Shown one piece after another: positions 2,814 through 61,629 of a DNA stretch of 64,000 nt. The DNA comes from Methylomonas sp. LL1. Its GTDB lineage: Bacteria; Pseudomonadota; Gammaproteobacteria; Methylococcales; Methylomonadaceae. A program made the translations under genes and the position numbers. The DNA is taken from NCBI RefSeq assembly GCF_015711015.1, contig NZ_CP064653.1, forward strand, positions 2,108,001-2,172,000, in the 5' to 3' direction. Within the stretch, counting starts at the first letter, position 1. Each line of letters starts with the position of its first letter. Below the pieces are notes generated by a model. The model worked only from the letters and a program-made list of their open reading frames with translations, was not told the origin of the DNA and made no database searches.

Positions 2814-3612
2814 TTTAAGCTGGCTATCCCGCACCGAACTGCTGATCGGCAAGGCCAAACTGGACAAACTACAAGCATCGCATGTACTGGTGGTGGGCAT
2901 GGGCGGGGTCGGTTCGTTCGCCGCCGAATTCATCTGCCGGGCCGGTGTCGGCCAAATGACCATCGTCGACGGCGACGTGGTCGATCCCAGCAACCGTAAT
3001 CGGCAACTGCCGGCGCTGGCCACCACGCATGGGCAATCGAAAGCCGATGTAATGGGCGAGCGTTTATTAGCGATCAACCCCGATTTAAAACTGACCATCA
3101 GGCACGAATTCATCACCCCCGATAGCGCCGATGACCTGTTGAGCCGGCATTACGATTACGTGGTCGACGCCATCGACAGCCTGACGCCCAAAATTACATT
3201 GATTCGCGCCGCCAAGTCCCGCAAGATGAAAATCATCAGCTCGATGGGCGCCGGCGGCAAGCTCGATCCCACCCACTTAAAAGTGGTGGATATTTCCAAG
3301 ACTTATAACTGCCCGTTCGCCCAGTTCATCCGGATACGCCTACGCAAACATGGCATCAGTCGCGGCGTCAAAGTGGTGTTTTCACCGGAAGTGGTGAACA
3401 AGGATTCGCTGATGTTTACCGACGGCAGCAATTACAAAAAATCCGCCTATGGCACGATTTCCTATTTGCCGGCGGCATTCGGCGGAGTCTGCGCCTCGGT
3501 GGTGATCCGTAATTTAATTCATGACCCGGCGACACACCACGCGTCAGATTCGCTTCCCACTTCCTCCGGCGAACCCGCGACTAGCGAATATTCGGAACAA
3601 CATCATGAGTAA
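2806..3612 (+). CDS. tcdA: tRNA threonylcarbamoyladenosine dehydratase
   Basis: TcdA (formerly CsdL/YgdL) is a ThiF/E1-like enzyme that uses ATP to cyclise t6A37 in ANN-reading tRNAs to ct6A. The 268-residue protein shows the adenylate-binding loop VVGMGGVGS at about residues 29-37, the downstream VDGDVVDPSNRNRQ segment typical of E1-like enzymes, and the family VDAIDSLTPK motif. There is no obvious cysteine-desulfurase partner next to it. It overlaps the TatD-like gene upstream and the small gene downstream, each by 8 bp, so the three probably form one operon. Confidence 0.92.
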   Translation: MTDLSWLSRTELLIGKAKLDKLQASHVLVVGMGGVGSFAAEFICRAGVGQMTIVDGDVVDPSNRNRQLPALATTHGQSKADVMGERLLAINPDLKLTIRHEFITPDSADDLLSRHYDYVVDAIDSLTPKITLIRAAKSRKMKIISSMGAGGKLDPTHLKVVDISKTYNCPFAQFIRIRLRKHGISRGVKVVFSPEVVNKDSLMFTDGSNYKKSAYGTISYLPAAFGGVCASVVIRNLIHDPATHHASDSLPTSSGEPATSEYSEQHHE

Positions 3613-3949
3613 ACCTAACACCCCACTACATTCCGGACCGATTCAGCTAAATCTGATCAATAGCACGCGTTTACAAACATTGCGAAATCAATCCAGCGGC
3701 GCCGGTCAAGATCCGCATCGACAGTCCGCATTCAAAAATGTCGGCCATCCGGATCATGAAGAAGACGCTCAAACCGCAAGGTTACGGCAACGCATCGATC
3801 AGCGAGTCATTGAAATACTGTCGCAATTACCGGCGGGCAAACAACGCAGTTTGTTCAAGCTCCGCTTCGGCCTGGAGTTAGATGAACTGAAGCAGTTGCC
3901 TATCCGACAAGCCGCCGAGATTTTGAAAATCAAACCCGACCGGCCATGA
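3605..3949 (+). CDS. Small hypothetical protein, 114 residues
   Basis: I do not recognise this family. The ATG at 3605 overlaps the tcdA stop by 8 bp, the same arrangement as at the previous gene junction, which is why I prefer it to an upstream start at 3521. The N-terminal half is polar and probably disordered, rich in Asn, Gln and Ser. The C-terminal half is helical and charged (RQRIDQRVIEILSQLPAGKQ) and ends in a Lys/Arg-Pro tail. No membrane segment or signal is visible. It is probably cytoplasmic and co-expressed with tcdA. Confidence 0.6.
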   Translation: MSKPNTPLHSGPIQLNLINSTRLQTLRNQSSGAGQDPHRQSAFKNVGHPDHEEDAQTARLRQRIDQRVIEILSQLPAGKQRSLFKLRFGLELDELKQLPIRQAAEILKIKPDRP

Positions 3950-4107: not shown

Positions 4108-4138
4108 TTGACTTAGATCACAGAACAGGCTCTATAAT
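4108..4138 (+). promoter_or_regulatory. Putative promoter, with an FNR/CRP-like site, for the CBM48 operon
   Basis: TTGACT at 4108-4113 and TATAAT at 4133-4138 are good -35 and -10 hexamers, but 19 bp apart, which is long. The -35 overlaps ttgacttagatcac (4108-4121), which matches the FNR/ANR palindrome TTGAT-N4-ATCAA at 8 of 10 positions. The region is strongly AT-rich and lies about 70 bp before the first gene of the operon. Binding is an inference from sequence only. Confidence 0.45.
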
Positions 4139-4206: not shown

Positions 4207-5268
4207 ATGAAACCAATATCGATCAACAAAGAAAGCCAATATGTCTTCAATCACTGCACCAAGTATCTAGCCAGAAGTAACGACGATCCCCGGCATAACT
4301 TCGGCCAGTTTACCGATAATGATCCGGCTGCAAAAATCTGTGAATCCTGGCGTTTCCCGATTATCGACAGCTATAGCGATGGCATTGATTTTGAAGTGGG
4401 ATACGGATTTAATGCGGTGACCTTTATTTATCCTGACTTCGACAAATCAGTCGGCAAAGTCGCTGTAATCGGCGATTTTGCCAATTTATACGAGCCGCTG
4501 CCGCTAAGCCGGGTTGGAGACAGCTGCTACCATGCCTTGACCCTGGTCATTCCGAAGGGCCGGGTGCATAACTACCAATTTCTGGTGGATGGCAACATCA
4601 GGCTGGACCCCATCAATCCGCAAACCGCCACCCTGGAAAACGGTAAGACTTGGTCGCGCTTTTTCACCGAATCCTGCACCGTCCCGCTTTCCTTCGAACG
4701 TTGGGAAATGGTATTGCTGGACCGGTTGACCGACCATATTCTGCCTTTTCGCACCGCCGAGGGCGAAAATTTTCTGACTCGCTTTTATGAGTCGCTGGAT
4801 AGATCGGCCAAGAACACCCAATTTGCCCATGCTTACCGCCTTGATCAATCCGTCGGCGCCGTCAATTTTATCGACAAGCTGCTGGCCCGCTCGGAACGGC
4901 ATTTTCTGGATGATTATCATATTTGCCTCGACATCATCGACAACGTACTACGCATGCGTAACCCGGTCACCGAAATTGCGGCGATGCCGAGAGACATGTT
5001 TGTCGATATTTACAACGACATGGCATCGGGCGTCGTCCCGGGCTGGAATTATGCCCGCTATTCCGACCCGCGTTTTTTTCTGAAACTATTGCGACGCCAC
5101 ACCCTTACCGGCGCTTTTGCCCATCCTAAATACGGCGGCAACAGCGCCGCATCCGGTTGGGCTTATCTGGCTGAACGCTACAGCGACCCCGTCACCGGCA
5201 CAACGTTATTCGATTGGCGACGCGCCATTGAAAAACCGCTGGGCGACGCGCCTGATTATCACGGCTAG
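4207..5268 (+). CDS. CBM48 domain fused to a gluconate 2-dehydrogenase subunit 3-like domain
   Basis: The 353-residue protein has two parts. Residues about 65-155 resemble a CBM48/AMPK-beta glycogen-binding domain (AVIGDFANLYEPLPL, then YHALTLVIPKGRVHNYQF, then VDGNIRLDPINP). Residues about 165-353 resemble the gluconate 2-dehydrogenase subunit 3 family, the small subunit of GMC-type sugar dehydrogenases, with the signature GAFAHPKYGGN then GWAYLAERY. No Tat or Sec signal is visible, although the family is usually exported. The GMC catalytic subunit starts 28 bp downstream, so a two-subunit enzyme is likely. An alternative GTG at 4195 would add four residues. I infer that the CBM48 brings the enzyme to an alpha-glucan. 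Confidence 0.8.
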   Translation: MKPISINKESQYVFNHCTKYLARSNDDPRHNFGQFTDNDPAAKICESWRFPIIDSYSDGIDFEVGYGFNAVTFIYPDFDKSVGKVAVIGDFANLYEPLPLSRVGDSCYHALTLVIPKGRVHNYQFLVDGNIRLDPINPQTATLENGKTWSRFFTESCTVPLSFERWEMVLLDRLTDHILPFRTAEGENFLTRFYESLDRSAKNTQFAHAYRLDQSVGAVNFIDKLLARSERHFLDDYHICLDIIDNVLRMRNPVTEIAAMPRDMFVDIYNDMASGVVPGWNYARYSDPRFFLKLLRRHTLTGAFAHPKYGGNSAASGWAYLAERYSDPVTGTTLFDWRRAIEKPLGDAPDYHG

Positions 5269-5296
5269 ACTCTCAACACATCACCGAGGTGTAACG

Positions 5297-7111
5297 ATGG
5301 AAGAAGAATTTGACGTCATCATAATCGGCAGTGGCGCGGGCGGGGCTCCGGTGGCGCACACCTTGGTCAACGCCGGCAAGTCCGTATTGATTTTGGAAAA
5401 AGGCCCATTGTTCTTAGCGCAATACCAAGACAGCTCCGGACTCTCGGATTTTAAACGGGACGAATTGTTTGCGACCGGTTCCGAAAAACGTATCACCCTT
5501 GCCGGCGTCGCCAACCAAGGCGAATCGTATTTCTCCAGCCATGTCGAACCGGACCTGAATGACGAACCGCACATCTATCAAAGCTTCGACGGTCAAGACC
5601 GGGCGACGCTAGAAGGCTATACCGCGCAGGTAGTCGGCGGCGGCACTCAGCTTTATGGCGCGGTGTCCCTGCGTTTCACCGAAACCGATTTTCGTTTGGG
5701 CAGTTTTAACCGCAACCGTGCCGATATTCTGAACGATCCCAACGACGACATCCGTCGGGAAGCGCCGGATTGGCCCATCACTTACGCTGATTTAGAGCCT
5801 TACTACACCAAAACCGAAGCTCTGATCGGCATCAACGGCACCCGGCAAAACCAGAAAAAGTTTTTCTCGGCCGATAATTATCAAACACCCTATCCGCCGA
5901 ATCCAATCAGCCAATACGTGGAAATCGGCATGGATGCCCTATCGTTGCCGCGCTATCGAACTCCATTGGCCGTGATTACCCAGGATCACGCCCCCAGTGG
6001 CCGTAAGATGGAAACCCAATTATCCCAGCCCGCCAAAACCGGCTATGTCAATCGCTACGGCGATCCGATGGGCTATAAATCCAACACCTGGGTTGCGTTA
6101 TTGAGCCCGATCAAAAGCAAGGACAATTTCGAAATACGCTGCAATTGCGTGGTGACTCATGTCGAGAATCAGGGCAGCCGCGTAAACCGGGTGTTGTATC
6201 GCGATCCATGCGGCGAACAGAAAGCCGTGAAAGGCAAGGTTGTGGTCATTGCCTGCTCGGCGATCGAGTCAATCCGCTTGCTAATGTTGACGGCACGCGA
6301 AAATTCGGATTTTGCCGCTCGCATCAATCCGAATGGTCTGTTGGGCAAGTATTTTTTGACCCACTGTTTTGGCGGCGCAGAAACAGTCATGCCGGAGCGG
6401 TTCGATAAGTCCATTTCTCTGGACAGTGACTGGGCCACCGATGCCTTTGCCACCGAAGAGTTCATCCTCGACCAAGGCTTATGGGCCGGCGGCGCGGTGT
6501 ATAACAATACCTCCGACCAAGCCCTGCCGATTTCCCTGGCGCGCACCCACGGCAGTCAGGATATCGATACTATCTGGAAAGCATTTGTCGAAGATACTCG
6601 GTTGACCGGTGCCGAAATGATGAAATTTTTTGACACTGATTTTGGCACTCGTTTATCGGTCAGTTTCATGGCCAATCAGGTGCCGTTAATAACCAATCGA
6701 ATCGAACTGCATCCTAGCGTGGTCGACAAATGGAATCGGCCCTGTGCCCATATCATCAAGGACTGGCATGTGCATGATAAATACATGATGGATACCTTGG
6801 CCGAGCAATGCCGAAAAATACTGGCCTTCGGCGGCGATAACGGCATGGGTAATTACAAGGTCGAAGGATTCGGCGGCGTCTACATGGCCGAAAACGCCCG
6901 CGCCCGCATCGCCAATCACATCCTTGGCGGCGCGCGTTTCGGCACCTCGCAGGCCAATTCGGTGCTGGATCCGGATTGCCGGGCCTGGGGATTCGACAAT
7001 CTGTATGTCACGGACGGCTCGTTCATGCCGACTTCGGGCAGCGCAAATCCGACTCATACTATTCAGGCCAACGCTTTCCGCGTGGCGGATAAAATTCTTG
7101 AGGTGATCTAA
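5297..7111 (+). CDS. GMC-family flavin oxidoreductase (sugar dehydrogenase-like)
   Basis: The 604-residue FAD enzyme is the probable catalytic subunit partnering the preceding gene. The N-terminus has the dinucleotide fold VIIIGSGAGGAPVAHTL with its acidic strand end LILEKG. The C-terminus has the GMC signature: NHILGGARFGTS, then DNLYVTDGSFMPT, then NPTHTIQANAFRVAD. The closest described relatives oxidise gluconate, 2-ketogluconate, fructose or glucoside hydroxyls. The substrate here cannot be read from sequence. There is no signal peptide. I chose the ATG at 5297 because it follows a ggtg-type ribosome site and the fold begins immediately; an upstream in-frame ATG at 5117 would overlap the previous gene by 150 bp. 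Confidence 0.88.
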   Translation: MEEEFDVIIIGSGAGGAPVAHTLVNAGKSVLILEKGPLFLAQYQDSSGLSDFKRDELFATGSEKRITLAGVANQGESYFSSHVEPDLNDEPHIYQSFDGQDRATLEGYTAQVVGGGTQLYGAVSLRFTETDFRLGSFNRNRADILNDPNDDIRREAPDWPITYADLEPYYTKTEALIGINGTRQNQKKFFSADNYQTPYPPNPISQYVEIGMDALSLPRYRTPLAVITQDHAPSGRKMETQLSQPAKTGYVNRYGDPMGYKSNTWVALLSPIKSKDNFEIRCNCVVTHVENQGSRVNRVLYRDPCGEQKAVKGKVVVIACSAIESIRLLMLTARENSDFAARINPNGLLGKYFLTHCFGGAETVMPERFDKSISLDSDWATDAFATEEFILDQGLWAGGAVYNNTSDQALPISLARTHGSQDIDTIWKAFVEDTRLTGAEMMKFFDTDFGTRLSVSFMANQVPLITNRIELHPSVVDKWNRPCAHIIKDWHVHDKYMMDTLAEQCRKILAFGGDNGMGNYKVEGFGGVYMAENARARIANHILGGARFGTSQANSVLDPDCRAWGFDNLYVTDGSFMPTSGSANPTHTIQANAFRVADKILEVI

Positions 7112-8248
7112 ATGGATTCCCGATTCAATAAAATTTTTACCGATCCTGAAAACAGCATTTTTAGGGTCGTATTTTTTCCCGATCGTATCTACCATGCCCA
7201 ATACCTGAATGCCACCCGCAGCCTGCGTTATCGCTATAACGTCCAGGAAGTGCGTAGCGTTGTGGATATCACGATTTTGAAGGGCGAAGTATATTTTGAC
7301 GGTCTGTTTTATAGTAATTTTTTACGAATCGAGTACCGAGGCAGTCGCCTGGTCGAGTTGGCCAGGGAAAACAACCGCTTCCTACGCGATGAATTATTGG
7401 CATTCGTCCGGCTATTGCCAACTGACGCCGGCTTGAATGCGGAAGCGACGGTGAAGCTGCATTACTGTCCTTGGATAGCTGCCTATCAAGCAGAAATCTG
7501 GCAAACTCTGGAAGCGCCGGAAAACAACCAACATGATTTTCAAATATTGGATTTGATGGGAAAAAACAAAGACATCACCCGGATTTCGGCATTCAACCCG
7601 GCATTGGAGGACATCAAAGGATTGAAGCGCATCGAAATCGCCTTCCGCGAGAACGACAGAGACTTACCGTTCGGCTACCCGATCAACAACCCGGTTTGGG
7701 ACAACAATTACCAACGATCCCATCAGCAACCGAACGTCACGACTCCCAGCAGTGATGCCAATACGGTCAGCGACATGAATTATTTAATCGATTTCCAACG
7801 CGGCTGGTTCCTGCAAGCGGACGACGTAGCCCCGGTGCGCTACCGTAATGCATTGATGGAGGAGGATAATCCGGATCGTGCCAATGACAACATCATCGAA
7901 ATGCGCTGGATATTGCAACGGGAGTTAGGCGGAAATCTGGTATTTTTCCACGAAGTCACCATTCCGCCCGGCAAAACCGAAGGGACTCACCAACATATTG
8001 GCAGCGAGGAACTCTACTACATCGTATCCGGTGAAGGCATAGCCTACATGGGCGAAAATGACGACCCGGCCCTGACGAATTTACCGACAGTGGAGCGCTC
8101 GATATTCGGACTGGACAAGCGGAACTGTAAAGAAATTCAGATCAAACCCGGCAGCGTGATTTTCACCAAAAGCGGCGGCATCCACGGCATCCGCAATCCG
8201 GGTAGCAAACCGCTTAAATTTGTCGCTTTTCTTTACCAAAGCAGCTAA
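7112..8248 (+). CDS. Cupin-domain protein (first of a pair)
   Basis: The ATG directly abuts the GMC gene stop codon, so translation is coupled. The N-terminal two thirds of this 378-residue protein have no motif I recognise. The C-terminal about 120 residues form a cupin with both conserved motifs: PPGKTEGTHQHIGSEELYY followed by VSGEGIAYMG, and PGSVIFTKSGGIHGIRNPG. The His, His, Glu and second-motif His positions are all present, so it should bind a metal. Possible roles are a sugar-binding or isomerising partner of the oxidoreductase, or a dioxygenase. The function is unproven. It is similar in plan to the next gene. Confidence 0.8.
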   Translation: MDSRFNKIFTDPENSIFRVVFFPDRIYHAQYLNATRSLRYRYNVQEVRSVVDITILKGEVYFDGLFYSNFLRIEYRGSRLVELARENNRFLRDELLAFVRLLPTDAGLNAEATVKLHYCPWIAAYQAEIWQTLEAPENNQHDFQILDLMGKNKDITRISAFNPALEDIKGLKRIEIAFRENDRDLPFGYPINNPVWDNNYQRSHQQPNVTTPSSDANTVSDMNYLIDFQRGWFLQADDVAPVRYRNALMEEDNPDRANDNIIEMRWILQRELGGNLVFFHEVTIPPGKTEGTHQHIGSEELYYIVSGEGIAYMGENDDPALTNLPTVERSIFGLDKRNCKEIQIKPGSVIFTKSGGIHGIRNPGSKPLKFVAFLYQSS

Positions 8249-8282
8249 GCCAACACACCTACCCTAACGCGGATCACCGACC

Positions 8283-9533
8283 ATGCAAATTCTTCATACA
8301 GACAGCATATTCCAAGTCCCTCCCGGCACCAGCCCCGACTACAATCGCGGCAATTCGCTGCTGAAATTGATGGGCTTAATGGAAAGAACGCAATTGGCGG
8401 CGGAACGAGAGTTCTATCTGACCGAACATTTGCAATACTTATTTCCCTACGACTTCCTGGAACTCTATGGTCCGGCCGGTTCGGACGGCAATATAACCGC
8501 TCCGGAACAGCAAGATAATAAGGAAGACTTCCAAAAACAAAATATTCGCGATTTTCGCGCCACCGATACCTCGCTGCTCAGAGGCTGGGTTGCCGTCGGC
8601 GATACCGTCATTCCCTTCGTTCGTATCAGTTACCGCAGCGGTCCCGATTCGCTGCTGTCGCAAGCAGCCAATCATAACCTCGGCGCCAATATCAAGCTGT
8701 ACCTGCGCGTTGGCAATCTCCAGACCAGCCAATACATTGTGGTTCCCTATAACGAAGTAAGCGACTCCTACGCAGTTGAATTATGGGGCTTTTCCGGACC
8801 CAATTTGCGGAACTTGTTGGACGCAAAGGGAAGGGACGCGTTCGACCGCGGCGAATTGATAGCCCGTGGCGATTTAATCAAGGGAACGCTGGCCGACTTT
8901 AACCGGAATGGCCTGGATAACCGGAATATGTTCGATGTCAGCCCCGACAATTCCATGCATCCGATCAAACCCTTGCATCTCGAACTGGCATGGACCAGCA
9001 ACGACGAAAGCGCATGGGACTCAAAATCCGGGGCCAATTATCAATACGAATTCAGCATGATTCTGCGCGGCTGGGACAACTTTTTAGGAGTCGGCATCAG
9101 CCCGAATCCGCATGGTGGAGTCGGTTTTCTGGAATTTAGGAACTTGCTGTCGAACTATTTCGCTTATTCAAACAGCAGGGAATTGGAACGAAAGCTTGAA
9201 CCCTGGAACTTCGACGCGCACGGGCGTAAGGACCACAACAATATCACCGAAAAATTCATGGCGGTTGATTACATGGACCTACATATCATGAAACCCAATT
9301 GCGGGATTGGCTTACATCGGCACCGGGATAATCAGGAAATCTTCCTAATGATGGAAGGTTCCGGCTTTATGGTCGTCGGCGACTGGGCCAAACCGGACAA
9401 CCGGGAACGTTGTTTTGAAATCAGAACCCTTAGGGCCGGCCATTTTGCCATGTTGAAAGGCGGCAATTTACACGGTTTGATGAACCCGAGCGATGAAGAT
9501 CTTTCGTTATTCATGTTCGGGGGTTATGACTAG
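8283..9533 (+). CDS. Cupin-domain protein (second of a pair)
   Basis: This 416-residue protein repeats the plan of its upstream neighbour: a long N-terminal region without known motifs, then a C-terminal cupin. Motif 1 is MKPNCGIGLHRHRDNQEIFL with MMEGSGFMVVG. Motif 2 is LRAGHFAMLKGGNLHGLMNPS. All four expected metal ligands (His, His, Glu, His) are present. The gene lies 34 bp after the first cupin, in the same operon as the CBM48/GMC pair and the amylase. Two tandem cupins with large unknown N-terminal domains are unusual beside a GMC dehydrogenase. Duplication followed by divergence is the simplest explanation. Confidence 0.8.
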   Translation: MQILHTDSIFQVPPGTSPDYNRGNSLLKLMGLMERTQLAAEREFYLTEHLQYLFPYDFLELYGPAGSDGNITAPEQQDNKEDFQKQNIRDFRATDTSLLRGWVAVGDTVIPFVRISYRSGPDSLLSQAANHNLGANIKLYLRVGNLQTSQYIVVPYNEVSDSYAVELWGFSGPNLRNLLDAKGRDAFDRGELIARGDLIKGTLADFNRNGLDNRNMFDVSPDNSMHPIKPLHLELAWTSNDESAWDSKSGANYQYEFSMILRGWDNFLGVGISPNPHGGVGFLEFRNLLSNYFAYSNSRELERKLEPWNFDAHGRKDHNNITEKFMAVDYMDLHIMKPNCGIGLHRHRDNQEIFLMMEGSGFMVVGDWAKPDNRERCFEIRTLRAGHFAMLKGGNLHGLMNPSDEDLSLFMFGGYD

Positions 9534-9602
9534 CCAATCGCGGCTAGCTCGTCCCCTATCCTCCCTTTTGCCATGGCACGAGGGACTGAAATGGAGAATA
9601 TC

Positions 9603-11546
9603 ATGCAAAAATCAATTTATTTTTGGTTGCTCGGACTCCTTTTCATCAGTCACGGCGTCCTAGCCAACCCTTGGAATGGCAAGGTGGTGTTCCAGGGCTT
9701 TTGGTGGGGGGCCGAGAATCAAAACTACCCTCAGGATTGGTACACCTACCTGGCCAAACTCGCCCCCCGCTTACGCGATATGGGCTTTGACGGTATCTGG
9801 ATTCCGTCGCCCAGCAAAGGCTGGCAAGGCAGTAATGATATGGGCTATGGCATCTACGATCATTACGATCTGGGCGACAAGAATCAAAAAAACACGGTCG
9901 CCACCCGTTTTGGCAGTAAAGACAGTTTGCTACGCTTTATTGCCGTCGCTCATGCAAACGGCCTGGATGTCTATCCCGACGTTGTGCTGAACCATGTCAT
10001 CGGCGGAGACTTTGACACCAATGCCCCCGGCGATAAATATAAAAAATTTCGCTTAGTCGGCTATGCGGGCCAGCAAAGCGGACGCTGGCCCAAGGACCAT
10101 TGGAATTTCCATCCCAATCCCGATCACGACTGTAACAGTGGCGACATTTGCGGCACCTTGCTCGGTGCGGACATCTGTTTTCTTGGCAACCAACAGGGTG
10201 GCGGCGGCAACGGTCAATATATGCTGGATAAAGCCAGGGAATGGCTAGTTTGGTTCAAAAAACAGACGGATGCCGACGGATTCCGCCTGGATGCCGTCAA
10301 GCATTTTCCGGCCTTTGTGGTCGAGGATGTCCTTTATAACGCCATGGGGCCAGGCAACAACTATTTCTGTGCCGGTGAGTTTGTTTCGGGCGCCAACCAA
10401 CTGGATCAATGGGCCGACGCTACCCAAAACCGATGCGGCACCTTCGACTTTTCCTTACGCAACGGTCTGGCGGCCATGGTCGATGGCGGCGGTTTTTTTG
10501 ATATGAGTTCCCTACCCGATATGCAGCAAAAAAACCGTTTAAAAACCTCGCCTTTCCTGAATAATCATGACACCTGGAAGGGCGCGTTCTGGGATTCGGC
10601 CACCACTTCGTCCACTCAACATGATGACAGAAGCGGCGATTGGCGCCAAAGCAACGATGAAATTTTACCGACTATCGACCCGGACAACCCGAGGTCGCAA
10701 ATCGCCTATGCCGCTGCGTTTTCAGTAGACGGCAGTCCAACCGTCTATTTCGAGGACTTGTTCGTCAATTACGGCCCCAATCGTTTCAAAGCCGACCCTG
10801 CGGCGATAGCAGCACGCGATTATCTGGTCAACATCATCTGGGCGCATCAAAAACTGGATTTTAAAGACGCCGCCTACAAGGTCCGCTATCGCAACTCGGC
10901 GGACTTGCTGGTGATCGAGCGCAGTGGCAAGGCCTTGATAGGCTTAAACGACAGCGGCACCGAGACGCTAAACGCCTGGGTGCAAACGGATTTCGGCACA
11001 CAAGTTACCCTGCATAATTACACTGCTTCCGACAGTGGCGACCTCCGCACCAACCAGGATGGCTGGGTTCAAGTCAGTGTTCCGCCGATGAGCTACGCCA
11101 TTTGGGCGCCAACCGGTGTTGTAGGCGGCTTTGCTCCAGCCTCGCGCCGAACTACGCAGGAATTCCAAATGGATGATGATTTGGGCGATTCCAGCCCGAA
11201 TTCACCCGGTTATGGCGGAAAATTATGCAGCGGTGGTTTGCGTACTGGTGGCGCGGTATGGGCCGCGGCAAATACTAATATTAAGGTAGAGCTATATACA
11301 GAGAGCCAACAAAATGCCGAAATTTCTGTCTTCCTACCCGACAATAACGGTCAACCACAAACCACTCAAGGCAGCCAAACCCAGCAAGGCAATGCCACCA
11401 ATTCCAGCCCGTTAACGTTGGCATTTAATACGGATCGCGAGGGCTATCACCGAATATCTGCCCACTTAAGTGGGAGCAATTCAGCCTGCGTGAAGGGATT
11501 TTTAAAAGTCAACTATCAAGCCCCCTCCACCTCGGATAAGTTTTGA
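9603..11546 (+). CDS. Secreted alpha-amylase (GH13)
   Basis: The enzyme would hydrolyse internal alpha-1,4 bonds of starch or glycogen outside the cytoplasm. A Sec signal peptide (residues 1-21, ending HGVLA before NPW) precedes the barrel. GH13 regions are all visible: DVVLNH (126-131), GFRLDAVKH with nucleophile Asp230, CAGEFV with acid Glu259, and NNHDT with Asp323. The C-terminal roughly 130 residues form an extra beta-rich domain of unknown type, rich in Asn, Gln and Ser. I chose this start because ggag sits six bases before the ATG and the signal peptide starts there. It is the last gene of the CBM48/GMC/cupin operon. Confidence 0.93.
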   Translation: MQKSIYFWLLGLLFISHGVLANPWNGKVVFQGFWWGAENQNYPQDWYTYLAKLAPRLRDMGFDGIWIPSPSKGWQGSNDMGYGIYDHYDLGDKNQKNTVATRFGSKDSLLRFIAVAHANGLDVYPDVVLNHVIGGDFDTNAPGDKYKKFRLVGYAGQQSGRWPKDHWNFHPNPDHDCNSGDICGTLLGADICFLGNQQGGGGNGQYMLDKAREWLVWFKKQTDADGFRLDAVKHFPAFVVEDVLYNAMGPGNNYFCAGEFVSGANQLDQWADATQNRCGTFDFSLRNGLAAMVDGGGFFDMSSLPDMQQKNRLKTSPFLNNHDTWKGAFWDSATTSSTQHDDRSGDWRQSNDEILPTIDPDNPRSQIAYAAAFSVDGSPTVYFEDLFVNYGPNRFKADPAAIAARDYLVNIIWAHQKLDFKDAAYKVRYRNSADLLVIERSGKALIGLNDSGTETLNAWVQTDFGTQVTLHNYTASDSGDLRTNQDGWVQVSVPPMSYAIWAPTGVVGGFAPASRRTTQEFQMDDDLGDSSPNSPGYGGKLCSGGLRTGGAVWAAANTNIKVELYTESQQNAEISVFLPDNNGQPQTTQGSQTQQGNATNSSPLTLAFNTDREGYHRISAHLSGSNSACVKGFLKVNYQAPSTSDKF

Positions 11547-11626: not shown

Positions 11627-11664
11627 GGCTGTTCGCTTAATACGCCCGTATGAAGCGAACAACC
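11627..11664. repeat. Hairpin after the amylase gene
   Basis: gttcgctt (11631-11638) pairs with aagcgaac (11653-11660), and the stem extends outward with one mismatch. No T-run follows, so it may be a weak terminator or only a structured repeat. Confidence 0.35.
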
Positions 11665-11752
11665 AAACTGGCTTATAATGTCACGCTTGCCGACTAACCG
11701 GCTTATTTAATAACGGTCTCGTTACCCCCATGCCAATTTCAAACCCCAACCA

Positions 11753-12667
11753 ATGTATACCGTAGAACCCAATCAGGATTATCGCGATCAAAGCCTGCGC
11801 CACAATACCGAACTTTCCAGAGAAGAACTCAAGTCCGATGCCACCAAACATTATGATGAGTGCTATCGGGACTATCTGTTCGCCTGGTGCAACCGGGACA
11901 ATTTAGCGCTGCATTATGGTTATTGGGATGAAACCAAACCTTACGACCAGCATCGGGCCTTATTGAACAAAAACCAGGTTTTATATGAAAAAGCCGGCAT
12001 TCAACCCGGCGATAAAGTCTTGGATGCGGGTTGCGGTATTGGCGGCAGCAGCATCTGGATGGCCAAACACTATCATAATCAAGTGACCGGCATCACCATC
12101 AGCGCCAAGCAAGCCGACTATGCCGGCCAGCATGCGCGCAGGCATGGAGTTTCGGAATTGGTCAACTTTGAAGTGGCCGATTTTTGCCAAACACCTTTTG
12201 CCGATGAAAGTTTCGATGCCGTCTGGGCCTTGGAAAGCTCGTGCCACGCCTTGAATAAAGCCGACTTTTTACGGGAAGCCTGGCGGGTATTGAAAACGGG
12301 TGGGCGTTTGGTTGTATGTGACGGATTTTTACTGCAACGCCAGTTTAACGAACAACAATGGCGAGCCGTGGTAACCTGTTTGAATGGTTGGGCGGTACCT
12401 AACCTGTGTTCGCGAGATGAATTTACCCAACTTCTGCAGACACAAGCTTTTCAATCGATTCAATGCCACGACATCACCGATCAGACTCTGCCGTCCGCCG
12501 ATTATATGTACAAAGTCGCCAAACGCTTACAGCCTGTGCAGAAATTCAGCCAGTGGCTAGGATTGCGTACCCAGGCGCAAACTGCTAACTATCTGGTTGG
12601 ATTGGCACAGCATCAATTATTCAGTGAAAAATTGACCGAATATTTGATATTCACCGCGCGGAAGTAA
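11753..12667 (+). CDS. SAM-dependent methyltransferase
   Basis: This 304-residue class I methyltransferase has the SAM-binding motif VLDAGCGIGGSS at about residues 89-100, then VTGITIS, a motif II-like FDAVWALES and motif III LKTGGRLVVCDG. The overall pattern (HYGYWD segment before motif I, long C-terminal lid) resembles tocopherol and sarcosine/dimethylglycine methyltransferases that act on small molecules. The acceptor is not predictable here. It is monocistronic, about 200 bp after the amylase operon, with a TATAAT at 11674 as a possible -10 and a strong terminator immediately after. Confidence 0.85.
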   Translation: MYTVEPNQDYRDQSLRHNTELSREELKSDATKHYDECYRDYLFAWCNRDNLALHYGYWDETKPYDQHRALLNKNQVLYEKAGIQPGDKVLDAGCGIGGSSIWMAKHYHNQVTGITISAKQADYAGQHARRHGVSELVNFEVADFCQTPFADESFDAVWALESSCHALNKADFLREAWRVLKTGGRLVVCDGFLLQRQFNEQQWRAVVTCLNGWAVPNLCSRDEFTQLLQTQAFQSIQCHDITDQTLPSADYMYKVAKRLQPVQKFSQWLGLRTQAQTANYLVGLAQHQLFSEKLTEYLIFTARK

Positions 12668-12780: not shown

Positions 12781-12898
12781 GCTTGGCGATGTCCTACTTT
12801 CACATGGCAACCTGCCACACTATCATCGGCGCTAAGCGGTTTCACTTCCGAGTTCGGGATGGGATCGGGTGGTTCACGCTCGCTATGTTCACCAAGCA
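12781..12898 (-). rRNA. rrf: 5S ribosomal RNA
   Basis: The reverse complement begins TGCTTGGTGAACATAGCG and contains the conserved CCCATCCCGAACTCGGAAG and CGCCGATGATAGTGTGG segments. The two ends (TGCTTGG and CCAAGC) pair as helix I. The end positions are accurate to a few bases. Confidence 0.95.
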
Positions 12899-13122
12899 AA
12901 CTGGTTTGGCTGGATCTATTATCCAACCGTCATGCACAGGTTAGGTTCATGGCCTCATTGGGCTTTGTTCCCTTAGGCTTTTCTCTCGCGTGCTCACTTT
13001 TGATGGGTGTTCACCGCGGCTTTTGCCTTGACCTGTTTTTCATGGAAATCTGTATCGAGTTTTTCGTTCTCAGTTGCTTATCAGCTATTGTCGTCTGACC
13101 TACCCAAACGCATTGGGTGTTA

Positions 13123-16021
<2,899 letters not shown>

Positions 16022-16382
16022 ATAACCCGAATACGTCTGCTGTCACTCGGCTTTGGATTTTCATCTTTGGCTTCGTTAGGCTTACTTATCTAAGTTATTT
16101 GTCAGCTGACATGTTCGCTGATGTTTTGCTTGAGAACGCTTTGCCGTTTGTTTTTTAGCGCTTGTTTTGCAACAATTGCCACCACAAACTGCAACTCGTT
16201 TTAATCGCGATCTTGGCAGATCGTGATTTTTGTTACAGATTTCCACATTGTTAAAGAGCTATTGATACGAATACCAATGCTATGCAGTCTTTATCGGATC
16301 GATAAAACCGCATAGCGCTGATGTTCCTACAAGCTTCAAACCGACAACACCTTTTACTCTCACCTCGCCACATCATGACAAA
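16022..16382 (-). other. tRNA-Ala to 23S spacer with boxA
   Basis: The spacer of about 360 bp holds GCTCTTTAACAAT on the minus strand (16247-16259), a good match to the rRNA antitermination boxA, and sequence that pairs around the 23S ends for RNase III processing. I see no gene in it. Confidence 0.7.
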
Positions 16383-16458
16383 TGGTGGAGCCAGGGAGGA
16401 TCGAACTCCCGACCTCCTGCGTGCAAGGCAGGCGCTCTCCCAGCTGAGCTATGGCCCC
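16383..16458 (-). tRNA. tRNA-Ala (anticodon TGC)
   Basis: The reverse complement starts GGGGCCATAGCTCAGCTGGG and ends TGGCTCCACCA. The anticodon loop is CTTGCAC, giving TGC. CCA is encoded. All arms pair, and it has the usual position between tRNA-Ile and 23S. Confidence 0.98.
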
Positions 16459-16494
16459 TAATCAGATCAAAGACGATTGCCTTTTTTCGTTAGT

Positions 16495-16571
<77 letters not shown>

Positions 16572-16631
16572 AGGTGTGTCTTTCAATCGAAATAATTTGT
16601 TGTGAGTACGTGAATCGGTGTTCCGTCTTTG

Positions 16632-18165
<1,534 letters not shown>

Positions 18166-38120: not shown

Positions 38121-39388
38121 TTATCGATGGTAATTCAATAATTTTGTATATCGGTTAAGCTAATCTGTATTGCCCGCGATGCGCTTCACTTTGTTCATCC
38201 TACCAAGCTGAAATATTTTAATTACGGTTAAATCTGATGTCATATAGCGAAATTCGAGAATCGACAAAAGTTATGTTACTCGACAAAGTTCGAAAGCATG
38301 ACTATGGCAAGTATTTGCTCAAGTCGAGTATTGCCAAAGTCCGTGGATTCACGGGTGAAGACATAACTTTTGAGTTTCCCGTTACCGCATTAATTGGACC
38401 AAATGGTAGCGGAAAATCTTCAGTTCTCGGAGCTGCGGGTTGCGCTTACAAACGGATAAAACCTGGCTTATTTTTCCCAAAGAGTGCTATTGGCGACGAG
38501 TCTATGTCTGAATGGCGAATTGAATATGAGGTTGTTGATAAAGATATTAATCAACGACAGACCGTAAAAAGGAGCAGTACATTTAGACAATCCAAGTGGG
38601 TTCGCGGTGAAGTTCTAGATCGCGATGTATTGTTTTTTGGAATTGAAAGAACAGTCCCAGCTGGCGAGAAACCACGCTTCAAGAAACTAATGCGCTCCAC
38701 ATATCATCATCAGGGTACTCTTTCAGACTTACCCCAAACAGTCGCACAGCAAATCGAGCATATTCTTGGTAAGTCAGTTGAAGGATTTAAAGTCACCGAT
38801 GTAGGTCATGATGATGATTTTTTTATTGGACGTAACGGAGAAAATCAGTATTCAGAATTCCATTTCGGAGCTGGAGAGTCATCAATTATCCGAATGATTA
38901 CTGAAATCGAAGCTGCACCAATTAATAGCCTAATTCTTATTGAAGAGATCGAAAATGGGCTTCACCCAGTTGCGACCCGGAGAATGGTGGAATATTTGAT
39001 TGATGCGGCCGAAAGGCGATCAATACAAGCTATTTTCACAACACATAGTGATTATGCACTATCTCCGTTACCAAATGAGGCGATCTGGGCTTGCATTGAT
39101 GGGAGGCTAAGACAGGGCAAGTTAAATGTTGAAGCTCTTCGGGCAGTTGCAGGAAGAGTGGATAAAAAACTCGCCATATTTGTTGAAGACGAGTTTGCAA
39201 AGTGCTGGGTAAATGCAATTCTACGTGAGAAGCTTGGAAATGATTACGAACAAGTTGAAGTTCATGCTGTTGCAGGCGACGGTAATGCTGTAACCACACA
39301 TTGTGCGCACATGGCTAACCCTTCTATGATGTGGCTACACTAAACCGGACACACTTTTTAAAATAACCTGAAAAAGCGTGAATCCAAA

Positions 39389-59127: not shown

Positions 59128-61374
59128 CTAGAGTTGGTAAGGAAACAAATTGATTAAGGCATTAAGCGCCGGATTCATGGCATTGGCCGAATCGATGGCC
59201 TTGGCCATATCCCACAACTTGACCGAAGACGTGTACATGTCCGAACGATCAATCAACGCTTGCCCCCAGGCGCGCACGACTTCATTCAATTCGTCGTCCA
59301 AGTAATAGCGTTGGCTCTCGTGCTGCAAAAAACCGTTGGCATGCAGATTATTGCTGGTATCGCTAACATACCATTTGTCGTCGTAAGCCACTTTGGCATG
59401 AAGAGTGCCACCGCCTATCCCATCCCATTTCTTTTTCATGAAAATCCGCAGCGAACCAGTGGCATCCGGCATTGCTTGAATCTCATCAAGTAAATGCGCG
59501 GCATATTTGACGATAGCCCCGCTGATTTGCGGCACATCGATGGTTTGCGGCGAGTTGGTGACAATATTGACAATACGGCCATCGCGTACCGCCCGCTTGA
59601 TGGCTTCCAGTGTCGGATCCAGATTGGCGCCGGGAACCGGCGGCAACACGTAGGCCTGAATCAAGGTAAAGCTGAAGCCGGATATTTCCAGGCCGCTCAA
59701 CACTCCGATCAGGCCATTGAAGGTTGAATCCGGCCCCGGCATGTCATGCGTGGCCAAGCCGATGATGTCACCCTGCTTCGATGGCGTCGCATAGTGTATA
59801 TCCTCGCGAACGATGTTCGGGCGCATGTGCATTTTGGCTTGCTGAAGCCACATATCATCCTCGGCGCGCTGCAACGACTGCGCCAGTTTGCCGGCAATTT
59901 TGAATTCGGCATCCATCCAGTCAAAGAAATAATCGCCATGAATATTACGGCCACCGACTATCGCCGAGGCATCGGCACCATAGCCGTTGGCAATAGCGGA
60001 TTTGGAATGATTGGAATCACCCGGGGTGCCACGTTCATCGTTATTGAAAAAGCACAGCGTGACGTTGGGATGAGCCGCCAACTCGGCCAACAGGCCACCG
60101 AGCACGACATGACTATCAGGATCAACCAACACCACTCCGGGATCGCGAAACGCCACGGTTCTATCGACGGTCATGTGGATTTCACCACCCGCATCGGCCA
60201 ATTCTTTTAGCTTTGCCGCCAGCCTGGGGCCCAAACCATAGTTATCGACCGGCTTGTTGGCGTAATGCTTCCAGACCGTGTAATCGTAGGTTACCGACTG
60301 GCCCGACTCGGCTAACGTTATTAATCGGTCGATGTCCGCCAACCGGGCGGCAAATGCATCGTTGCCTTCGGGCATGAAATCGACCCGATTGCCCCAAACA
60401 AATTCCGGCTTGGAAAACCCTGCTTCGGGTTGGACCAATTCGGCAAACTTGGCCAGCACATTCATGCGGATAATCTCATCGCGTTTATAGAAACCATCAC
60501 GCTGGAACAACTCGATTTGCTTATCTTCGCTGTAATACATCGGCTCCTGCGGGTTAATAGCCAAGGTTTTGCGCAGCTTGTTGAGCGATACCAGTTTGTC
60601 GTTGACTTCCTTGGCGATCTGATTCGGCGATTTGTAATAACGCCCGTCGCTAGTGGTGGCTTTCTGATTCAGCAACAATTCGCTGAGTATGGTCGCACGC
60701 AAATTATCGGCCATGATTTCATTGCGAATTTTATTGGCCTCGATTTGTTCGGGAGTCGCCGGCGTACCGTCTTTGTTTTGCGTAATAGGCAGGGAGGCAT
60801 TGACGAAATCTTCCGAAAATTGCGGCAACTGACCGGCATTGTTGATTCTCACCATATCGTTGCCGATTTGCGAACGATCGCCGGTGGTCAAAGCCAATTG
60901 CAAGTGGCTAGGCGGAATATCGTATTTCTCACCGGCTCGAGACAAGCGCTCCACGGTTTCCGCCCTTTGCTGAGTTTTACGGATTTGTTCGTCACTGACC
61001 GGCGTGGCATTTTGCAAATCCACTCCAGGCTTGGCGGTAAACCTGTACCATTGGTTCGGTAAACCCGGCTGTTCCGGATTGAGCTCCAAATAAAACGAAC
61101 GTGAATCCGATTTGGAGGCGTACACCTGATAATCATAGCCATTTGGTCCGCCAAGTTGATCCCTGATTTCGCGATTGGGATTCAAACCGACCGCCTTGAA
61201 GGCATCCTTTTTTAGTAAACCGGAGGCATCGTTTGGCTTTTGCGCGCCGAAACGCTCGGGCGGCAACACATACCTATCCTTCATGTTCAACCCGAGTAAA
61301 GCCATGGCAATATCGGCTTCCGTTAAGGTATGGCCCCCGAGGACTGATCCAGCGCCAAGTGTGTTGTTACCCAT
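59128..61374 (-). CDS. Phospholipase D-like protein
   Basis: The 748-residue protein has two PLD half-sites: HSKSAIANGYGAD (His456, Lys458) with IVGGRNIHGDYFFDW, and LHAKVAYDDKWYVSDTSNN (His659, Lys661, Asn675/676). Family enzymes cleave phosphodiesters, usually of phospholipids. The N-terminal about 350 residues are a separate region without recognised motifs, with Gln/Asn-rich helical parts. No signal peptide. I chose the ATG at 61374 (MGNNTLGAGSVLGG), since the earlier ATG adds a stretch that looks non-coding. It is the first gene of a minus-strand cluster. Confidence 0.87.
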   Translation of the reverse strand: MGNNTLGAGSVLGGHTLTEADIAMALLGLNMKDRYVLPPERFGAQKPNDASGLLKKDAFKAVGLNPNREIRDQLGGPNGYDYQVYASKSDSRSFYLELNPEQPGLPNQWYRFTAKPGVDLQNATPVSDEQIRKTQQRAETVERLSRAGEKYDIPPSHLQLALTTGDRSQIGNDMVRINNAGQLPQFSEDFVNASLPITQNKDGTPATPEQIEANKIRNEIMADNLRATILSELLLNQKATTSDGRYYKSPNQIAKEVNDKLVSLNKLRKTLAINPQEPMYYSEDKQIELFQRDGFYKRDEIIRMNVLAKFAELVQPEAGFSKPEFVWGNRVDFMPEGNDAFAARLADIDRLITLAESGQSVTYDYTVWKHYANKPVDNYGLGPRLAAKLKELADAGGEIHMTVDRTVAFRDPGVVLVDPDSHVVLGGLLAELAAHPNVTLCFFNNDERGTPGDSNHSKSAIANGYGADASAIVGGRNIHGDYFFDWMDAEFKIAGKLAQSLQRAEDDMWLQQAKMHMRPNIVREDIHYATPSKQGDIIGLATHDMPGPDSTFNGLIGVLSGLEISGFSFTLIQAYVLPPVPGANLDPTLEAIKRAVRDGRIVNIVTNSPQTIDVPQISGAIVKYAAHLLDEIQAMPDATGSLRIFMKKKWDGIGGGTLHAKVAYDDKWYVSDTSNNLHANGFLQHESQRYYLDDELNEVVRAWGQALIDRSDMYTSSVKLWDMAKAIDSANAMNPALNALINLFPYQL

Positions 61375-61629
61375 ATAAACCTCTCCTCGAATCAAGATGA
61401 TAATTGGCAAAAACCCAGTAACATTCGAGCATCAGAACCGCGTAAATGTGAATGGCTTCACACAATAATAGTAAAATAATCGTATTTCTCAAGTGATGAG
61501 AGACTTTATTTCACATGCTGAAAGCCCCGATACGGGCCATTTTGTACCGATTTTTCTAGGCGCCCAAATCAGCCTCATTTTATTCGCGGCCCGTCCCTGG
61601 CAGAATCAGATCAGTCCCTAAATACGAGC
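61375..61629. other. Gap between rfbD and the phospholipase D cluster
   Basis: About 255 bp containing the likely promoter of the minus-strand cluster. It is A/T-rich around 61455-61500. No gene is visible. Confidence 0.4.

Follow-up and report, generated by a model that had tools for sequence, protein, structure and literature searches.

Positions 4207 to 11546 of a 64,000-nucleotide stretch of the Methylomonas sp. LL1 genome (contig NZ_CP064653.1, positions 2,108,001 to 2,172,000; hereafter the window) hold five closely spaced genes, the first four of which form a conserved unit: a fusion of a CBM48-type domain with a subunit-3-type (SU3) domain of gluconate dehydrogenase, a GMC flavoprotein oxidoreductase and two cupins, A and B. 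Their order is shared by 21 cassettes, the window's included, from Pseudomonadota, Cyanobacteriota, Actinomycetota and Planctomycetota, and the cassette is rare and horizontally moving. Enzymes of glycoside hydrolase family 13 (GH13) recur beside it. Reading function from sequence, we lean with modest confidence towards a mobile cytoplasmic cassette for the oxidative processing of alpha-glucan (glycogen or starch) or its malto-oligosaccharides. The component families are known; the four-gene set with its GH13 neighbour is apparently undescribed, no description of it having been recognised among the titles listed in searches of an open-access library.

A rare and mobile four-gene cassette

All five open reading frames (ORFs) reported in an earlier note on this DNA were recovered, on the forward strand: the SU3-CBM48 fusion (4207-5268, 353 amino acids), the GMC protein (5297-7111, 604 amino acids), cupin A (7112-8248, 378 amino acids), cupin B (8283-9533, 416 amino acids) and a GH13 alpha-amylase (9573-11546). 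The spacing is as close as that note had described, with intergenic gaps of 28, 0, 34 and 39 bp in order.

We scanned named genomes with an SU3-CBM48 alignment, two short N-terminal peptide patterns and then tblastn, a scan that misses relatives without the two patterns. It yielded 15 loci, in Nostoc (4), Nitrosospira (2), Streptomyces (5) and one each in Streptosporangiaceae, Solirubrobacteraceae, Planctomycetaceae and Methylomonas lenta. GMC and then cupin A follow SU3-CBM48 in 15 of 15, and cupin B lies on the same contig in 14; in the other (L014) the sequence breaks off within cupin A, and what remains of the cassette sits on a second contig from that genome. Searching independently with cupin B turned up four further full-length loci, three in the phylum sample of Nostoc and one in that of Streptomyces, and all four carry all four genes. 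Among 72,556 plasmids, a single one (pMVF16-5, from Microvirga sp. VF16) also has the cassette; distant GMC matches on 669 other plasmids reached 30% identity at best among the matches listed. Wherever a relative of SU3-CBM48 or cupin B was found at full length, the other three genes thus accompany it, once across two contigs. A single truncated cupin B fragment (L040) has no other cassette gene within 18 kb. Weak partial cupin matches, the G194 remnant and the distant plasmid GMC matches were left out of the cassette count.

The cassette is sparse wherever it occurs. SU3-CBM48 is present in 2 of 151 relatives, namely the window's own genome and M. lenta. Among cyanobacterial genomes, 4 of 339 have cupin B at full length, alongside one remnant; for actinomycetes the count is 2 of 346. 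It is 1 of 246 for planctomycetes, with three weak partial matches besides, and 1 of 321 for gammaproteobacteria, with two. These counts include the centre genome of each sample, the new finds being 3, 1, 0 and 0, respectively, and scoring was confined to the top few candidates in each genome. No gene of the 19 translated cassettes (a set without L010 and L014) has an internal stop, and the L036 and L037 cassettes are near-identical. In L010 (Nostoc indistinguendum), cupin A (12929-14071) is split into two ORFs and the neighbouring GH13 gene is a remnant, a possible case of cassette decay.

A CBM48-type domain on a flavoenzyme subunit

In the fusion protein, Pfam places AMPK1_CBM at residues 83-141 (E 9.6e-6; 26.2 bits, 0.6 bit below the 26.8-bit gathering score) and Gluconate_2-dh3 (PF13618) at residues 170-319 (E 3.3e-6; 27.9 bits versus a cut-off of 23.4). 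Both were matched at E ≤0.01 in all 16 members of the alignment (the window copy and 15 relatives). An AlphaFold2 model built from 20 sequences has a mean predicted local distance difference test score (pLDDT) of 62.6, with ten-residue blocks at 73-91 across residues 71-150. Its top Foldseek match is the AMPK-beta CBM with cyclodextrin (4yee; E 7e-6, template-modelling score by target 0.88, root-mean-square deviation 1.9, 88 columns). By both sequence and model the CBM48-type domain is real and adopts the beta-sandwich CBM48 fold; the earlier note, which had placed it within residues 65-155 and joined it to a subunit-3 domain, was right on both counts.

The predicted SU3 half is identified by Pfam alone: no SU3-type subunit appeared among the PDB profile-search matches of the alignment or among the best 50 of 1,175 Foldseek matches to the model. 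The SU3 gene adjoins the GMC gene in 21 of 21 cassettes. For the CBM48 half, we take AMPK Trp100, Lys126 and Trp133 to be the glycogen-contact positions. Of 19 sequences compared, 18 carry an aromatic residue or His (Tyr, His or Phe) at the Trp100 position, and the Lys126 position holds Lys in 15, Arg in 2 and Gln in 2. L013 retains Trp at the Trp133 position; in the Microvirga copy, Thr, Arg and Ser occupy the three positions.

A GMC enzyme and two predicted metal cupins

The protein that the earlier note had proposed as the partner of the fusion is indeed a GMC oxidoreductase, with the FAD motif, the GMC_oxred_N and GMC_oxred_C domains (the latter at E 1.1e-21 in Pfam) and the His-Asn pair of the family. 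That pair, His541 and Asn584, presumably functional as in other GMC enzymes, is invariant in 16 of 16 sequences. At the position of the flavin-linking His, all 16 carry Gln (Gln118, in a GGGTQ motif), where pyranose oxidase has the His of its covalent FAD. In a phmmer search of the PDB, the GMC protein came nearer to FAD-dependent glucose dehydrogenase (6e-30), its closest solved relative, than to pyranose oxidase (1e-10), and its NCBIfam pyranose oxidase match, at 58 bits, is far under the 545-bit cut-off.

FAD-dependent glucose dehydrogenase, which combines a GMC alpha subunit, an SU3-type gamma subunit and a cytochrome c, is among the nearest known systems, as are gluconate 2-dehydrogenase and glucoside 3-dehydrogenase. 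Such glucose and gluconate dehydrogenase complexes have an Fe-S cysteine motif in the GMC subunit (CCG...C in glucose dehydrogenase, where it binds the cluster), a Tat or Sec signal and a cytochrome c subunit. In the cassette, the motif occurs in 0 of 16 sequences over the aligned GMC region, with a single Cys in 5; no clear signal was seen on the proteins, and no cytochrome gene is annotated in the L043 cassette or found among the window's five genes. Because the motif, the export signal and the cytochrome partner were not found, electrons probably do not leave the GMC enzyme by the usual Fe-S and cytochrome route.

The two tandem cupins also stand as first described. Pfam matches Cupin_2 in the C-terminal part of cupin A (E 5.4e-12), the N-terminal part having no convincing match, and in cupin B (E 1.1e-5, just below the cut-off); in the cupin B alignment, all 15 members, the window copy included, match at E ≤1. 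The two proteins are remote homologues of each other (hhalign probability 96%, E 2.9e-9). Both keep the predicted metal ligands HxH, E and H, which are invariant as His293, His295, Glu299/Glu300 and His358 in cupin A (14 sequences, without L010 and L014) and as His345, His347, Glu352 and His397 in cupin B (15 sequences, without L014). Metal cupins catalyse eliminations and sugar isomerisations, as in dimethylsulfoniopropionate lyases, KduI and aldos-2-ulose dehydratase, the last of which joins a beta-propeller to a dicupin and dehydrates a 2-keto sugar. At 378 and 416 amino acids, cupins A and B are too short to house a beta-propeller. Against the PDB, the cupin A profile matched small cupin proteins; the cupin B profile gave nothing under E 1.1 and the single sequence gave no match. 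Weak matches of the cupin B structure model to beta-sandwich proteins were set aside, the model being poor, and for that reason no tie of cupin B to a sugar dehydratase was obtained.

GH13 genes of four types accompany the cassette

A GH13 gene lies directly downstream on the same strand in 13 of the 21 cassettes (the window, L012, L041, L013, L015, L016, L017, L018, L021, L020, L038, L039 and L043), with spacings between -1 and 89 bp for the 11 such cases measured besides the window. Two further cassettes have a full-length GH13 gene upstream, about 1.8 kb off in L008 and about 1.2 kb off, with one gene between, in L009, and three retain remnants only (L011 downstream; L007 and L010 upstream). 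By identity, these neighbours fall into four sequence types: A, in Nostoc, Nitrosospira and L038 (55-91%); B, in L020 and L043 (50%), with the M. lenta remnant resembling L020; C, in L013, L015-L018, L021 and L039 (52-92%); and D, the window amylase. Types A and B share about 30% identity over most of their length, and type C shares 22-32% with either, often over partial length. The three genes of types A and B that were tested match GlgB and TreZ models under the cut-offs, and the six actinobacterial type C genes tested (L013, L015-L018 and L021) exceed the GlgX cut-off (TIGR02100). The L013 gene is short with an odd C-terminus, perhaps through a frameshift, and the start position of the L017 gene is unsettled.

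Cassette genomes hold only 1-7 CBM_48 matches each (low counts, as some Streptomyces cassette copies were missed), so that a CBM48-GH13 gene should be the very next gene about once in a thousand per locus, by our estimate. We estimate about four separate cassette-GH13 pairings, many Streptomyces and Nostoc cases not being mutually independent. Nothing speaks more strongly for a substrate related to alpha-glucan than this recurrent pairing, and with GH13 neighbours of four types, the tie to alpha-glucan enzymes that had been suggested from the window is supported. The four Nostoc loci L007-L010 also have a GT4 gene upstream of the cassette; the one tested, in L007, matches a starch-synthase domain as well.

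The window amylase itself belongs to GH13 by family search, with DGFRLD and AGEF motifs and, by eye, NNHD; the catalytic Asp, Glu and Asp of GH13 enzymes sit in these motifs. Its hydrophobic, signal-like N-terminus agrees with its earlier description as secreted. It occupies the place that GlgX or a CBM48-GH13 enzyme has in other cassettes and was found in 1 of 37 genus genomes, the window's own; at E 1e-4, tblastn matched it in none of the 15 genome loci fetched. The window holds no CBM48-GH13 remnant, the sole match (E 3e-5) lying inside the amylase. Of the five-gene set originally proposed, then, the first four genes are constant across the 21 cassettes, whereas the fifth varies and is not regularly an amylase of the window's type.

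The four proteins of the 19 translated cassettes show no clear export signal on a crude hydropathy measure, in line with what had been remarked for the window's oxidoreductase pair. Hydropathy peaks are as high as 1.68 for GMC and 1.89 for cupin B (L043), versus 2.12 for the amylase, and an early RR occurs in the L012 SU3 and L013 GMC proteins. A cytoplasmic glucan is favoured because the fifth gene elsewhere is a GlgX or CBM48-GH13 gene without an obvious signal.

The window cassette in its genomic setting

TatD, ThiF, a small ORF and a methyltransferase lie together in four congeners, which have no five-gene block at the corresponding place and in which the small-ORF relative sits directly beside the methyltransferase. 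In the window, the small ORF between ThiF and the methyltransferase (3521-3949, +) stops early at 3949, its 3' end apparently displaced by the insert. A stretch resembling the displaced tail lies at about 11648-11685 (+), marking an approximate right boundary drawn from weak matches of 13-16 bases (E 0.003-0.05) and from inspection by eye. Given the cut at 3949 and this tail-like stretch, the five genes probably form a single insertion within a core locus, next to a ribosomal RNA operon. In M. lenta, the cassette lies elsewhere and the site equivalent to the window's is without it. We considered the methyltransferase (11753-12667, +) as a sixth member and rejected it; as a core gene of the genus, it is matched in all 37 genomes (with E 1e-91 or better in 36 of them) and stands beside the empty site too.

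A simple scan listed 9 promoter-like sites versus 10.4 expected and 16 terminator-like sites versus 11.0 expected. It placed no terminator-like site on the forward strand between cupin B and the amylase; of those on that strand, one lies past the methyltransferase (12687) and the other five within the five ORFs. Upstream of the cassette, at 4108-4138, we noticed by eye TTGACT and TATAAT with a 19-base spacer, unlisted by the scan because its spacer limit was 18, and a TTGAC-N4-ATCAC palindrome that we take to be CRP/FNR-like. An anti-phage defence reading was dropped, PADLOC having returned only two generic matches.

Elsewhere in the window, an ISAs1-like transposase ORF, recognised by eye, lies near the insert (741-1868, -), and a complete ribosomal RNA operon (5S, large-subunit rRNA, tRNA-Ala, tRNA-Ile and small-subunit rRNA) comes right after the methyltransferase (12781-18165, -). 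Genes for the small and large subunits of a NiFe hydrogenase, followed by HypB/CobW-like, HypD and HypF genes, span 26033-48600, with an AAA_21 ATPase ORF among them (38237-39343). A 760-amino-acid ORF with a TTG start (59128-61410, -) has no Pfam match at E 1e-5.

Discussion

On the most economical reading of the cassette, oxidation yields a keto-glucosyl unit, and the cupins then catalyse its elimination or rearrangement; the order of steps and the products we infer. A GH13 enzyme would first trim or debranch the glucan. SU3-CBM48 would chaperone and dock the GMC enzyme, its CBM48 domain either bringing that enzyme to the glucan or serving as a rigid spacer. The GMC enzyme would then oxidise a hydroxyl of a glucosyl unit, most likely at C2 or C3, passing electrons to O2 or to a soluble or quinone acceptor, since its periplasmic relatives have a cysteine motif and a cytochrome c partner that are missing here. 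Finally, the two predicted metal cupins would dehydrate, eliminate or isomerise the keto-sugar to a cleaved or anhydro product. A more specific version, which we put forward tentatively, is an added route of storage-glucan breakdown, in which the CBM48-docked flavoenzyme oxidises glucosyl units of the intracellular polymer or dextrin, the cupins release an anhydro- or keto-sugar, and GlgX, GlgB-like enzymes or an amylase have been recruited repeatedly.

Several observations weigh against an intracellular glucan-oxidising cassette. At the AMPK Trp100, Lys126 and Trp133 positions, the window CBM48 has Tyr, Gln and Ile, and only 8 of 19 sequences have an aromatic residue or His at the Trp133 position. 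With the Trp100 and Trp133 contact residues replaced, glycogen binding is possibly weak or lost; binding by the window domain is uncertain, and the CBM48-like domain may be structural. Cysteines 284, 320, 505 and 561 of the GMC enzyme are invariant in the 16-sequence alignment and could hold another metal or redox centre. The cupin B model has a mean pLDDT of 61 and no PDB match below E 0.001 in Foldseek. A secreted amylase sits oddly beside a seemingly cytoplasmic oxidoreductase pair; it may feed the pathway with imported maltodextrin, or may merely have replaced a lost CBM48-GH13 gene. In three of the 21 cassettes (L019, L036 and L037), no GH13 gene was detected with these queries in the fetched stretch. 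The earlier note had held that a GMC pair widespread without cupins and amylase would speak against a common system: the cupins are never missing from the cassettes found, and it is GH13 that is undetected in these three and reduced to remnants in three more.

The degenerate CBM48 contacts, all three of which are changed in L043, would also suit a small-molecule pathway, in which the flavoenzyme oxidises free glucose or maltose supplied by GH13, the CBM48-like domain is structural only, and the product is a dehydrated keto-sugar metabolite (cortalcerone- or ascopyrone-like), perhaps a chemical weapon or antioxidant. We consider this rather unlikely. The cupin pair downstream, the rare, patchy and mobile distribution, as in secondary metabolism, and the appearance of pyranose oxidase among the PDB and, far below cut-off, NCBIfam matches of the GMC enzyme all fit; the closer match to glucose dehydrogenase, Gln in place of the flavin-linking His and the lack of space for a beta-propeller in the cupins argue otherwise, as does a fold search, from a poor model, without such a match. 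The glucose dehydrogenase likeness and the SU3-type partner in turn suggest that the GMC pair might oxidise malto-oligosaccharides at C1, their reducing end, giving lactones that the cupins bind or hydrolyse; FAD-dependent glucose dehydrogenase with its SU3-type gamma subunit does oxidise C1 to a lactone. Lactone hydrolysis, however, needs no pair of conserved metal cupins, and the cysteine motif, a clear signal peptide and (in the L043 cassette) an annotated cytochrome gene are all missing, which leaves this quite improbable in our judgement. Least probable, and very unlikely, is that the GH13 neighbours are incidental, the cassettes landing near polysaccharide genes and acting on another alcohol. 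The cassettes with GH13 undetected or reduced to remnants, the gene interposed in L009 and the different, exported amylase of the window point that way; four separate GH13 types, the tight downstream spacing and the few CBM_48 matches per genome point away from it.

Like FAD-dependent glucose dehydrogenase (PDB 8hdd/6a2u), the cassette pairs a GMC catalytic subunit with an SU3-type partner; unlike it, the SU3 domain is fused to CBM48, no cytochrome gene was seen, and two cupins and a GH13 enzyme stand alongside. In fungi, pyranose 2-oxidase and aldos-2-ulose dehydratase act in sequence, oxidising a sugar and then dehydrating it. If GMC sugar oxidation is followed by cupin-type dehydration, the cassette would obey the same logic; its cupins have a Pfam-unmatched N-terminal part and lack the length for a beta-propeller, and we know of no SU3/CBM48 partner in the fungal pyranose 2-oxidase system. 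Because it does not show defining features of either, we do not file the cassette under periplasmic FAD-glucose dehydrogenase-type complexes or pyranose oxidase, although it may work similarly to either; we regard it as a variation on the GMC/SU3 type, in a gene set that seems to be undescribed. Its CBM48 domain shares the fold of those in AMPK-beta, SEX4 and feruloyl esterases, but its carrier is an oxidoreductase subunit and the Trp contacts are mostly replaced. OPOx is reported to have a GIHW motif and covalent FAD (PMC11650716), where the cassette enzyme has Gln118. Glycoside C3-oxidation and beta-elimination by GlycDH with AtOGE/PuCGE is reported to act mainly on flavonoid beta-O- and C-glucosides (PMC10628242). 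The cassette would likewise couple enzymatic oxidation with metal-dependent elimination, its predicted metal enzymes being cupins and the eliminases of the glycoside system being TIM barrels with Mn2+ (PMC10628242).

If true, the storage-glucan route would stand beside phosphorolysis, hydrolysis and the lyase route, as an undescribed oxidative branch of glycogen or maltodextrin metabolism in some cyanobacteria, actinobacteria and proteobacteria and one planctomycete, and would mean that the helper subunits of flavoenzymes can carry carbohydrate-targeting domains. The cassette is a testable five-gene set in several named strains and a possible source of new sugar-oxidising biocatalysts.

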